From a virus: a stretch of 32,721 nt of DNA. A program made the position numbers and the translations under genes. Shown in pieces: positions 3,631-20,658 of this stretch; the stretch's first letter is position 1; every line of letters starts with the position of its first letter. Under the pieces are notes generated by a model. It did no database searches, was not told the DNA's origin, and was given only the letters and a program-made list of their open reading frames with translations. Location: the IMG/VR virus record IMGVR_UViG_3300025294_000020, positions 1 to 32,721 of that record; one strand, given 5' to 3'.

Positions 3631-4026
3631 TTATTCGCCCTGACGATCGCCTAGTTTACGACCTTTCTCAGCATCCTTAATCATCTTCCAGAAATGTCGC
3701 AGCTCCTTTTTTCTTTCCTCAGGAGCTTCTAAGTATTCCTTAAAAAAGATGCCGTGTTCTGGATTGTTTATGAACTCTTCAAATTCAAGTTCATCGGAAT
3801 CCTTCTCCTTTATCTGAGGAGAGGAATCATCTGTGCGGCCAAACAAATAATCCATAGAGACATTAAAAACTTCAGCTATTCGTTGCAAGGTATCAGTATC
3901 AGGTGATCTATTTCCGTTTTCATACCCGGAAATAGAAACCTTTGTTACGTTTATTTTTTTGCCCAACTCTTCTTGAGTCATCTTATTTTGAGTTCTCAAC
4001 TGTTTTAATCGGGAAGGGAAAGTCAT
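3631..4026 (-). CDS. XRE-family phage repressor (CI-like)
   Basis: 131 residues from the ATG at 4026 with AAGGTG upstream. Residues 4-58 form a helix-turn-helix of the XRE class (MTQEELGKKINVTKVSISG, YENGNRSPDTDTLQRIAE, DYLFGRTDD). The C-terminal part (EEFINNPEHGIFFKEYLEAPEERKKELRHFWKMI, here given as separate segments of helix) is typical of short repressors whose inactivation depends on an ImmA protease and not on self-cleavage; no LexA-like Ser/Lys peptidase domain is present. It should bind the GTTAAC operators between itself and the divergent Cro-like gene. Confidence 0.9.
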   Translation of the reverse strand: MTFPSRLKQLRTQNKMTQEELGKKINVTKVSISGYENGNRSPDTDTLQRIAEVFNVSMDYLFGRTDDSSPQIKEKDSDELEFEEFINNPEHGIFFKEYLEAPEERKKELRHFWKMIKDAEKGRKLGDRQGE

Positions 4027-4061
4027 AAGAAACACCTTCTTTTTGAGGTACTTTACCTTTA

Positions 4062-4090
4062 AGTATAAGTTAACAGTTAGTTAACGTAAA
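4062..4090 (-). promoter_or_regulatory. Repressor promoter with operator O1 in the spacer
   Basis: Read on the minus strand, TTTACG (4090-4085) and TATACT (4067-4062) are separated by exactly 17 bases. Operator O1 (4069-4085) occupies nearly the whole spacer, so a protein bound there would block or adjust repressor synthesis. Confidence 0.6.
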
Positions 4091-18987: not shown

Positions 18988-19548
18988 ATGGAAGCAATCA
19001 TAACTAAAATTTTAGGAGTAGCTAAATATACTACCAAGTTTTTTGTTATTTTGGCCGTAGGTTCGGGGCTATTATTGTTCTTACCGAAGGAGTTCATTGA
19101 CAAACTAGGTGTGTTTAAATTTGTAACGGATAACAAGCAATATATTGGAATGACATTCCTTGTTTCTGGTGTTGTATCTATATCAAACACCATTACATTC
19201 ATTTATAAAAAATTCACTACAAAAATTAGAATGAAGAATGTACATCGTTCGCGTGAGAAACGTCTACATTCCCTTAATCCTAGGGAGAAGATGATCTTAT
19301 TGTACTACTTTGTTAATGGGACAAATACACAACTATTAGCTTTTAATGACGGGACAGTGAGGGAATTAGAAGGATATATGATAATACAAAGAACATCCCA
19401 AGTAAGCCAAGCTGGAATGAACTTTCCATATAATTTGAACCCATGGGCGAGAGAGTATCTTAATGAACATCCAGAACTGCTGGATATAGACGAGGAAGAA
19501 GCAGTTTTGATCAAGCGTGAATTAGAAAGGGATAGTTGGCCGTGGTGA
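18988..19548 (+). CDS. Superinfection exclusion protein B (SieB)-like membrane protein
   Basis: 186 residues, ATG behind TTAGGAGGGC. Two membrane segments, near 17-33 (KFFVILAVGSGLLLFLP) and 52-74 (YIGMTFLVSGVVSISNTITF), are followed by a basic stretch and a cytoplasmic domain (LHSLNPREKMILLYYFVNG) ending with LNPWAREYLNEHPELLD. This layout is that of SieB-like proteins found in phages of Firmicutes and Proteobacteria, which stop growth of superinfecting phages. The family call rests on topology and remembered sequence pattern. It has its own terminator. Confidence 0.7.
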   Translation: MEAIITKILGVAKYTTKFFVILAVGSGLLLFLPKEFIDKLGVFKFVTDNKQYIGMTFLVSGVVSISNTITFIYKKFTTKIRMKNVHRSREKRLHSLNPREKMILLYYFVNGTNTQLLAFNDGTVRELEGYMIIQRTSQVSQAGMNFPYNLNPWAREYLNEHPELLDIDEEEAVLIKRELERDSWPW

Positions 19549-19578: not shown

Positions 19579-19607
19579 AGCACCTGAATATATATGGGTG
19601 CTTTTTT
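19579..19607 (+). terminator. Rho-independent terminator after the SieB-like gene
   Basis: AGCACC (19579-19584) pairs with GGTGCT (19597-19602) and continues into a run of six T. Confidence 0.8.
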
Positions 19608-19683
19608 GCTATAAAACAAAGAAATAAAGGAAATAAAGGCAGATTTAAGGGGAGCATGTTCTAGTGCTTCCGATTGCCGGAAC

Positions 19684-19776
19684 ATGAACAGAAAACGTCG
19701 TGGCGGTACCGTAGAATCGCTCTACGAGCGTGTTATGGATGCACATATAGGAAACCAACTCAACTCAAAAATATAG
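19684..19776 (+). CDS. Possible 30-residue peptide
   Basis: The frame starts at ATG 19684 in the downstream arm of a CATGTTC/GAACATG stem (19655-19661 with 19680-19686). The product is basic at the start (NRKRRGGTVESLYERVMDAH) and polar after. A hairpin, ATAGCACA/TGTGCTAT, overlaps the stop codon. The ribosome site is weak, so coding status is uncertain. The gap 19608-20124 is otherwise explained only by the tRNA-like pieces and the ORF below. Confidence 0.35.
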   Translation: MNRKRRGGTVESLYERVMDAHIGNQLNSKI

Positions 19777-19812
19777 CACAGGAAAACTCTTTGTGCTATT
19801 CTAGTAAAAAAC

Positions 19813-20019
19813 ATGTGTGCCACCGGTATAGGTTCGATTCCTATGCTCTCCGGATTTTTAACTCATCTCACAACCAATTGGTTCCTAGGAAGCTTGGTTT
19901 CAGGGCTTATAGGAGCTGCTTTGGGTGACTGGTTCACTTCTTTGAAACAGAAAGGATTGATGTCGATGAGTACAATCATTATCTCGCTGTCCCTGGTGGC
20001 TTGCGGAGAGTTGGTGTAA
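19813..20019 (+). CDS. Possible small membrane peptide lying between tRNA-like halves
   Basis: A 68-codon frame with no ribosome site at ATG 19813 or ATG 19843; only ATG 19960/19966 has AAAGG upstream. The central part (TTNWFLGSLVSGLIGAALGD) reads like a glycine-zipper membrane helix, followed by WFTSLKQKGL. The frame overlaps both tRNA-like pieces. It may be a remnant or a real peptide read by coupling. Confidence 0.3.
   Translation: MCATGIGSIPMLSGFLTHLTTNWFLGSLVSGLIGAALGDWFTSLKQKGLMSMSTIIISLSLVACGELV
19828..19852 (+). other. tRNA-like 3' half (T-arm and acceptor strand)
   Basis: ATAGG-TTCGATT-CCTAT is a perfect T-arm with the invariant TTCGA loop; it is directly followed by GCTCTCC and G as acceptor 3' strand and discriminator. 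No CCA is encoded and no proper 5' half lies within normal distance upstream. The acceptor is complementary to GGAGAGT at 20005-20011 downstream and also to GGGGAGC at 19649-19655 upstream. Confidence 0.6.
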
Positions 20020-20048
20020 TGGTAGCACGGGTTTTCATAGCTAAGACC
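20005..20048 (+). other. tRNA-like 5' half (acceptor, D-arm, anticodon arm)
   Basis: GGAGAGT is an acceptor 5' strand; TG are positions 8-9; GTGT-AATGGTA-GCAC is a perfect D-arm with the GG of the D-loop; then GGTTTT-CATAGCT-AAGACC forms an anticodon-like hairpin that is two bases too long, containing TTCATA. No T-arm follows; instead there is GGGGCAGCCCC and a terminator. The acceptor matches the 3' half at 19845-19851, giving six Watson-Crick pairs and one G-U. Confidence 0.6.
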
Positions 20049-20073
20049 TAGGGGCAGCCCCAAAAAATCTTTA

Positions 20074-20101
20074 AGTCATCTCATGAGAGATGGCTTTTTT
20101 T
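20074..20101 (+). terminator. Rho-independent terminator
   Basis: AGTCATCTC and GAGATGGCT form a 9-bp stem with an ATGA loop, followed by seven T residues. It ends transcription through the tRNA-like region before the ParB-like gene. Confidence 0.85.
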
Positions 20102-20124: not shown

Positions 20125-20658
20125 GTGGAAATAAGAGTATTACCGATAGATAAAATCAAAGCAGCAGCCTACAATCCTCGTGTCGACCTGCAGCCAGGCG
20201 ATCCAGAATACGAAAAGCTGCGCCGCAGTATTGAGGAGTTCGGATACATTGACCCGATCGTCTGGAATGAGCGGACTGGAAATATGGTCGGCGGTCATCA
20301 GCGGTACAAGATCCTTGTCAACGAGCTGGGTCGCGAAGAGGTAGAGGTATCGGTCGTTGACCTAGACGAGACACAGGAGCGGCTTCTAAACCTTACACTG
20401 AACAAGGTAGAAGGTCGATGGGATGATGAAGCACTGGCACGCCTTCTTGAAGAGCTCCAAGCAGAAGCAGCAGACCTTGGACTTACGGGCTTTGATGCCG
20501 ATGAAATAGAAAGCCTTATTGAAGAATTCACAGAGCCGCTAGAGGATCAGCTCGGCGACTTTGAGAATCGAGAACTGGATACGAATGAATTCGACGAATC
20601 CCAATTCGGGTGCAAATGCCCGCGTTGTGGATTCGTTTTTGATTCTGAGGGTGAGTAG
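20125..20658 (+). CDS. ParB/sulfiredoxin-fold nuclease-like protein with zinc ribbon
   Basis: 177 residues from GTG behind GGGGG. Residues 1-90 show the ParB N-terminal pattern: VLPIDKIKAAAYNPR, LRRSIEEFGYIDPIVW and the box MVGGHQRYKIL. The C-terminus carries CKCPRCGFVF, half of a zinc ribbon. In phages this domain is typically next to a DNA methyltransferase, as here, where it lies two bases upstream. It may target or assist modification; partition is unlikely because no ParA is present. Confidence 0.85.
   Translation: MEIRVLPIDKIKAAAYNPRVDLQPGDPEYEKLRRSIEEFGYIDPIVWNERTGNMVGGHQRYKILVNELGREEVEVSVVDLDETQERLLNLTLNKVEGRWDDEALARLLEELQAEAADLGLTGFDADEIESLIEEFTEPLEDQLGDFENRELDTNEFDESQFGCKCPRCGFVFDSEGE

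Follow-up and report, generated by a model that had tools for sequence, protein, structure and literature searches.

Does a pair of transfer RNA (tRNA) halves that stand in reversed order in a prophage represent a permuted tRNA gene, a dead remnant of a tRNA, or a part of something else? This question is raised by a locus in the virus record IMGVR_UViG_3300025294_000020, the whole 32,721 nucleotides (nt) of which are called the window below; coordinates are window positions unless another locus is named. In this locus, a T-arm with an acceptor 3′ strand (19828–19852) lies ahead of an acceptor 5′ strand with a D-arm and an anticodon-like arm (20005–20048). Our analyses strongly support this permuted tRNA-like structure as a conserved RNA. 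The element is not a tRNA gene, because only some members of the family have a tRNA-like D-arm and T-loop and its anticodon-like arm is variable in length, and it is not a dead tRNA either, because its shape has been conserved by evolution. With moderate confidence, we read it as a mobile, probably toxin-like gene for a small membrane peptide, the messenger RNA (mRNA) of which would have its ends tied together by a tRNA-like pseudoknot of permuted order that controls translation or decay.

The sequence of the window agrees with the reversed halves described in the initial annotation. The 3′ half precedes the 5′ half and the acceptor strands match, which is the order of a circularly permuted tRNA gene. 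The two acceptor strands pair at all seven positions, as had been claimed, with six Watson-Crick pairs and one G-U pair, and the spacing of the halves, from 19852 to 20005, is exactly 152 bases. In addition, the anticodon-like hairpin (GGTTTT-CATAGCT-AAGACC) is indeed two bases too long, having 19 nt where 17 are normal. ARAGORN calls no linear tRNA gene in the window, and at the gathering score Rfam matches only a tRNA at 1–80 there, the T-arm alone reaching 14 bits against a cut-off of 29. A chance origin of the layout was rejected, as one equally good permuted layout was met in 60 megabases of sequence from a Markov model of the window, that is, ~0.001 would be expected on both strands of the window; the pattern was set after the hit had been seen, and homologues are the better test.

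By DNA pattern, the element was found in two phage contigs, one nearly identical (L002) and one about 94% identical over 406 bases (L001). The intact linear homologue in sister phages that the initial annotation had considered did not appear when ARAGORN was run on the window, L001, L002, L146, L192 and L195–L200. Further genomes were sampled around Paenibacillus. A DNA search within one genus gave one further true copy in 100 genomes (L146), two other matches being short, and a family-level protein search gave copies in 7 of 295 genomes, one of which is the L146 genome. Two additional copies (L168, L169) came from the order level and one (L202) from the class level. At the order level 31 of 392 genomes matched, only 8 of them strongly (E-value below 1e-20); most of the weak matches involve the profile end within a longer open frame and resemble signal peptides of lipoproteins. 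A covariance-model search reached an E-value of at most 0.01 in 59 of 295 genomes, where the six strong matches were copies already known and the other 53 had a best E-value of 1.6e-6. Neither by DNA nor by protein (tblastn) were homologues found in annotated phages and plasmids. Overall, 12 copies were used (the window, L001, L146, L155, L156, L158, L159, L160, L161, L168, L169 and L202), that is, one near and ten diverged copies beyond the window; L002 was excluded as a duplicate, as were loci fetched again from places already covered. The order and spacing of the parts are conserved in all 12.

Across these copies four helices covary: the T stem, the acceptor stem, a previously unreported helix X, and a short helix Y. 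In the window, their strands and the neighbouring arms are as follows.

19819–19822, plus strand: 5′ strand of helix Y, GCCA, with covariation.
19828–19844, plus strand: T-arm, as read from the sequence a stem of 5 base pairs (bp), ATAGG/CCTAT, and the 7-nt T-loop TTCGATT; two-sided changes in 3 of 5 pairs.
19845–19852, plus strand: acceptor 3′ strand GCTCTCC (19845–19851) and position 73, a G at 19852; 7 of 7 pairs with 20005–20011, two-sided changes in 4 of 7.
19987–19996, plus strand: 5′ strand of helix X, CTGTCCCTGG; 93% of cells paired, two-sided changes in 4 of 10 pairs.
19997–20000, plus strand: 3′ strand of helix Y, TGGC, with covariation.
20005–20011, plus strand: acceptor 5′ strand GGAGAGT, with pairing and covariation.
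20014–20028, plus strand: D-arm GTGT-AATGGTA-GCAC, the stem being present in 6 of 12 copies.
20030–20048, plus strand: anticodon-like hairpin, variable in length in the family.
20047–20057, plus strand: 3′ strand of helix X, CC-T-AGGGGCAG, covarying with 19987–19996.

For the T, acceptor and X helices together, 92.4% of 264 pair-by-copy cells are paired, and two-sided changes are seen at 11 of 22 pairs, in 21 cells, which are not independent events since L001 closely resembles the window, as L156 does L155. In 500 shuffles, neither the pairing nor the two-sided counts nor the covariation score was equalled, and 4 of 500 equalled the number of further pair types. When the partners were slid by 1–3 bases, pairing was only 42–58%. 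The rows behind these numbers are hand-cut segments that leave out the linker, the D and anticodon-like region, the bulged base in the 3′ strand of helix X (six copies) and an extra G in L155 and L156. Acceptor stems with two-sided changes include GGCAAGA/ACTTGCC in L161, GGAGAAT/GTTCTCC in L169 and GGGGAGA/TCTCCCC in L202. For helix Y, 85% of cells are paired and 6 are two-sided, a result reached in 0 of 500 shuffles, although its count of pairs changed on both sides is equalled by 60 of 500 shuffles and its percentage paired by one slid control, which has no two-sided changes. The compensatory changes thus exceed the controls, as is expected of a structured RNA. A plain fold of the window transcript, by a method blind to pseudoknots, is also more stable than shuffles (z −2.74). 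The strands follow each other in the order Y, acceptor, X, Y, acceptor, X, so that the three long-range helices mutually cross.

The likeness to tRNA is unevenly distributed over the element. In all copies as aligned, the lengths of the T-arm (5 bp, 7-nt loop) and of the acceptor (7) are identical, like the top half of a tRNA, while the TTCRANT consensus of the T-loop persists in 9 of 12, being lost in L159, L160 and L168. A D stem is found in the window, L001, L146, L158, L160 and L169 and is lost or changed elsewhere; five of these six also have the GG in the loop, which is absent from L160. The length of the anticodon-like hairpin is not conserved (19 nt in the window, 14 nt in L146).

The initial annotation had mentioned a membrane-peptide frame across the middle of the locus. 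This frame is present and, beyond what had been claimed, it is conserved across the copies and thus not incidental. The locus is a compact gene (19797–20101), in which a putative promoter, the T-arm with the acceptor 3′ strand, an in-frame open linker, the acceptor 5′ strand with the D-arm, and a terminator follow one another. Its further features in the window are given below.

19797–19802, plus strand: putative extended −10 box TGC-TATTCT (TG at 19794–19795), from which a transcript start is predicted a few bases before the T-arm.
19813–20019, plus strand: open reading frame (ORF) for a hydrophobic small protein of 68 amino acids, overlapping the T-arm and both acceptor strands.
19951–19968, plus strand: internal Shine-Dalgarno-like AAAGGA and ATG, in the frame of a hydrophobic C-terminal peptide of 17 amino acids, MSTIIISLSLVACGELV.
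20073–20101, plus strand: intrinsic terminator, found in the window sequence.

Between copies, linker lengths differ by multiples of 3. In the part of the linker upstream of the internal Shine-Dalgarno-like stretch, stops number 1 in frame 0 but 37 and 14 in the two others (11 rows, L202 being excluded for its length); frame 0 also has the lowest ratio of nonsynonymous to synonymous proportions (pN/pS) of the three, and second codon positions change least. Eight of the 12 copies share the column of the 5′ start codon, which is ATG or TTG; the start-codon probability ignores the relatedness of the copies. In all 12, a purine-rich Shine-Dalgarno-like stretch lies ahead of the aligned internal start, which is ATG in 11 and GTG in L202. 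Pfam, PHROG and NCBIfam give no convincing family for the protein, with single-member matches at a best E-value of 0.0026. A small hydrophobic peptide ORF, as found here, is a feature of type I toxin-antitoxin loci.

The signals around the frame are also recurrent. In 11 of 12 copies a −10-like hexamer ends 25–30 nt ahead of the T stem; in L146 the best-scoring one is at 38. L158, L160 and L161 have a good −35 box, and the one of the window is poor (3 of 6). Downstream, a run of 5 or more T is present in 10 of 12 copies. From the T-arm side to helix X the linker is nearly constant (135 nt in 10 of 12), the acceptor 5′ strand begins 18 nt after the start of helix X (19 nt in L155 and L156) and is followed by further hairpins.

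The insertion sites differ between copies. The G040 copy adjoins the TnsA gene of a Tn7-like element, with a GlmS-like gene, recognised by eye, nearby; the G132 copy adjoins the Wadjet genes JetD and JetA; the G201 copy has IS66 on one side and a protein with a weak TIR-effector match on the other; the G140 copy adjoins a DinG-like helicase; and phage-like genes surround the G240 and G220 copies. The neighbours of the G164, G054 and G408 copies (DUF5677; an acetyltransferase and DUF2691; a phytochrome) suggest nothing in common. The pattern as a whole fits a small gene that is mobile or carried as cargo.

The gene layout, the four covarying helices, the conserved coding frame and the varied insertion sites are established at the level of sequence comparison, and the reading that we prefer is as follows. 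The locus would be a mobile gene in its own right, about 300 bp long and carried by the prophage as cargo, and we infer that it is transcribed, the transcript being predicted to begin just ahead of the T-arm and to end at the terminator. In this RNA, the T-arm and acceptor 3′ strand at the 5′ end would pair with the 3′ part, which carries the acceptor 5′ strand, the D-arm and the anticodon-like arm. The acceptor stem would be crossed by helices X and Y, so that the RNA is closed end to end around the ORF for a hydrophobic, probably membrane-acting and perhaps toxic peptide. The knot may gate peptide synthesis by masking the regions where translation starts, and/or the tRNA top half, with the 7-bp acceptor stacked on the 5-bp T stem, may be offered to ribonuclease (RNase) P and RNase Z. 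A cut by RNase P or RNase Z would separate the ORF from its stop codon; it is the tRNA-like top half that suggests these two enzymes as possible cutters. The type I toxin mRNA timP is controlled by a pseudoknot (PMC11228461), and we think that the knot may control a small membrane-acting peptide here in the same way. A bolder proposal is a new bacterial class of mRNA closed by a permuted tRNA-like pseudoknot. The toxin would be a mobile membrane peptide linked to phages, Tn7-like elements and defence loci, and the host cell, through its own RNase P, RNase Z or tRNA-binding factors, would supply the switch or antitoxin; we regard this as unlikely.

Several observations weigh against the preferred reading. 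The three crossing helices may form together in a single knotted fold, or they may represent alternative states of the RNA. A helix that would hide the internal start codon (ACTCATC/GATGAGT) is perfect in the window and L158, but it was rejected since family covariation gives it no support. The 5′ start codon is absent from 4 of 12 copies, and L158, as the sole copy with a closed linker frame, has an in-frame TAA just past the acceptor strand. From the internal ATG to helix X, pN/pS is lower in one of the other frames, which however contains 25 stops. The AlphaFold model of the peptide is helical and of low confidence (mean predicted local distance difference test score, pLDDT, 61.6), and was not used. 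In the 11 copies scanned (L168 in, L202 out), no antisense promoter was found at a constant place, while reverse-strand promoter-like sites downstream of the ORF occur at differing places in 5 of 11. RNase P commonly wants CCA or RCCA, and no CCA or RCCA follows the acceptor strand. In a report on a pseudoknot that bacterial RNase P does cut, the substrate required an RCCA end (PMC12710915).

The small hydrophobic peptide, the long-range 5′–3′ pairing and the mobile contexts would equally suit a full type I toxin-antitoxin pair, in which an antisense RNA is the antitoxin and the knot silences the toxin mRNA. This special case of the preferred reading, which overlaps with it, also has the timP pseudoknot as a precedent (PMC11228461), whereas the lack of a constantly placed antisense promoter in the 11 copies scanned would speak against it and the toxicity is only presumed; we hold it as a tentative possibility. 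If the product were instead a noncoding RNA that acts in trans or a decoy that mimics tRNA, aimed for instance at tRNA-cutting enzymes of host or phage, and the peptide were secondary, this would account for the kept tRNA top half, for copies in prophages and close to defence genes, and for a protein without known family. However, the coding frame of the linker is conserved and the T-loop consensus is lost in three copies, and this explanation seems doubtful to us. Conversely, the locus could be an ordinary small membrane-protein gene that looks like a tRNA by chance or codon constraint, as the conserved frame spans the T-arm, the linker and the acceptor 5′ strand. But two-sided changes are present at half of the 22 pairs, slid controls lose the pairing, and the 3′ strand of helix X covaries although it lies past the ORF of the window, which makes this very improbable.

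A genuine tRNA gene of circularly permuted type, whose transcript would be processed by RNase P and RNase Z and possibly ligated into a working or two-piece tRNA, would explain why all copies keep a tRNA-like top half and some a canonical D-arm. After the halves are rejoined by script, ARAGORN even calls a tRNA in 6 of 12 copies. However, the other six give no call, and the called anticodon varies among copies and joins. The anticodon-like hairpin has neither a constant length nor a U33-like loop, the D-arm is lost or degraded in about half of the copies, and the linker and 5′ region are coding. To our knowledge, bulge-helix-bulge splicing machinery is not expected in bacteria either, and we consider such a gene improbable. 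The dead remnant favoured by the initial annotation would arise by tandem duplication of a tRNA and loss of the outer halves, which would give the observed layout. It fails in that compensatory changes preserve both stems, acceptor and T, in diverged copies, the window copy has lost none of their pairs, and promoter-like boxes, ORF and terminator travel with the element, so that this origin is hardly credible. A permuted intron–exon arrangement, with group I intron flanks around the halves, was rejected as well: there is no Rfam intron match, and the flanking noncoding motif occurs in phages without the halves.

How would the proposed mobile membrane-peptide gene with a knotted mRNA compare with known systems? 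The tRNA-like structures of plant viruses are tRNA-like shapes made by a pseudoknot at a free 3′ end with CCA. The element shares with them a tRNA-like shape involving a pseudoknot, whereas its acceptor opens into a long coding loop and its strand order is reversed. Circularly permuted tRNA genes of algae and archaea have the same order of T-arm/acceptor 3′, linker and acceptor 5′/D-arm; here, in contrast, there is no usable anticodon arm, the linker is coding, and the break lies in the variable region. The hok transcript is a type I toxin mRNA, and we know of no tRNA-like fold as part of type I toxin mRNA systems. Such mRNAs, including hok and timP (the latter in PMC11228461), are alike in the small hydrophobic peptide, the long-range pairing or pseudoknot and the mobile or prophage location, while no antitoxin RNA has been found here.

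The closest parallel to the strand order comes from permuted transfer-messenger RNA (tmRNA), where the 3′ tRNA-like half is encoded ahead of the 5′ half and the RNA unites a tRNA-like domain and an ORF. Permuted tmRNA genes that stay in two pieces are known in bacteria (PMC3978253). The permuted layout noted initially is real and conserved in homologues, but the remark that it is not known in bacteria needs a qualifier, as permutation itself is not new to bacteria. Unlike in tmRNA, the ORF here lies in the loop between the acceptor strands and encodes a hydrophobic protein of 60–70 amino acids, not a tag, and some copies have a real D stem. ARAGORN and Rfam match no tmRNA in the window, nor does Rfam in the 8 homologue loci on which it was run. 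In titles and abstract openings of the PubMed Central literature, no description was found of a coding acceptor loop combined with a tRNA-like fold kept by covariation, and Rfam 15, Pfam, PHROGs and NCBIfam do not place the RNA and peptide family. The element shows a tRNA-like fold of reversed strand order under selection in bacteria without a tRNA role, and it raises the question whether tRNA-processing enzymes regulate a mobile gene via a permuted tRNA mimic. An apparent degenerate tRNA becomes a clear structural target for probing.

A separate tRNA-like noncoding stretch, in normal order, occurs in L006 near 4089, L021 near 2400, L026 at 3989–4079, L027 near 4921 and L045 near 3510. It has a 7-bp closing stem of the GGCACGC/GCGTGTC type and a T-arm GCGGTTCAATTCCGC, with other sequence in place of the D and anticodon arms. 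ARAGORN calls none of these; in L026, Rfam gives no match and the single-sequence fold is not significant.

As for the setting in the prophage, the window encodes an integrase (183–1340), SieB (18988–19548), a ParB-like protein (20125–20658), a C5 DNA methylase, a terminase small subunit and a portal protein. In related prophages, the ParB-like gene has a conserved noncoding stretch ahead, ending in GAAACCAACTCAAC(A/T)CAA, at a varying distance from the gene. This stretch has roughly 130 bases (19620–19768 in the window; around 5966 in L022, around 5968 in L012 and around 2479 in L004), and the exact end motif is found in 37 viral and 35 genome stretches, 21 of the latter from Paenibacillus. 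No Rfam RNA was matched in the stretch at the 10 loci scanned; it is possibly a structured RNA, a packaging site or a cargo hot spot. The interval between the stretch and the ParB-like gene is a slot that holds different cargo genes in many Paenibacillus prophages. In L022 the motif directly abuts the ParB gene, while in the window and L001 the tRNA-like element sits between the two; L156 has the motif as well. Since the element occupies this place in only some phages, it is cargo in the slot and not part of the phage core. Immediately upstream of the slot lies the superinfection-exclusion gene SieB (Pfam 1.9e-34), and a second intrinsic terminator just past it (19579–19602) insulates the slot against upstream transcription. 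At the left end of the window, the tRNA at 1–80 (Rfam, 49.5 bits) adjoins the minus-strand tyrosine integrase gene, and the two probably mark the attachment site of the phage.
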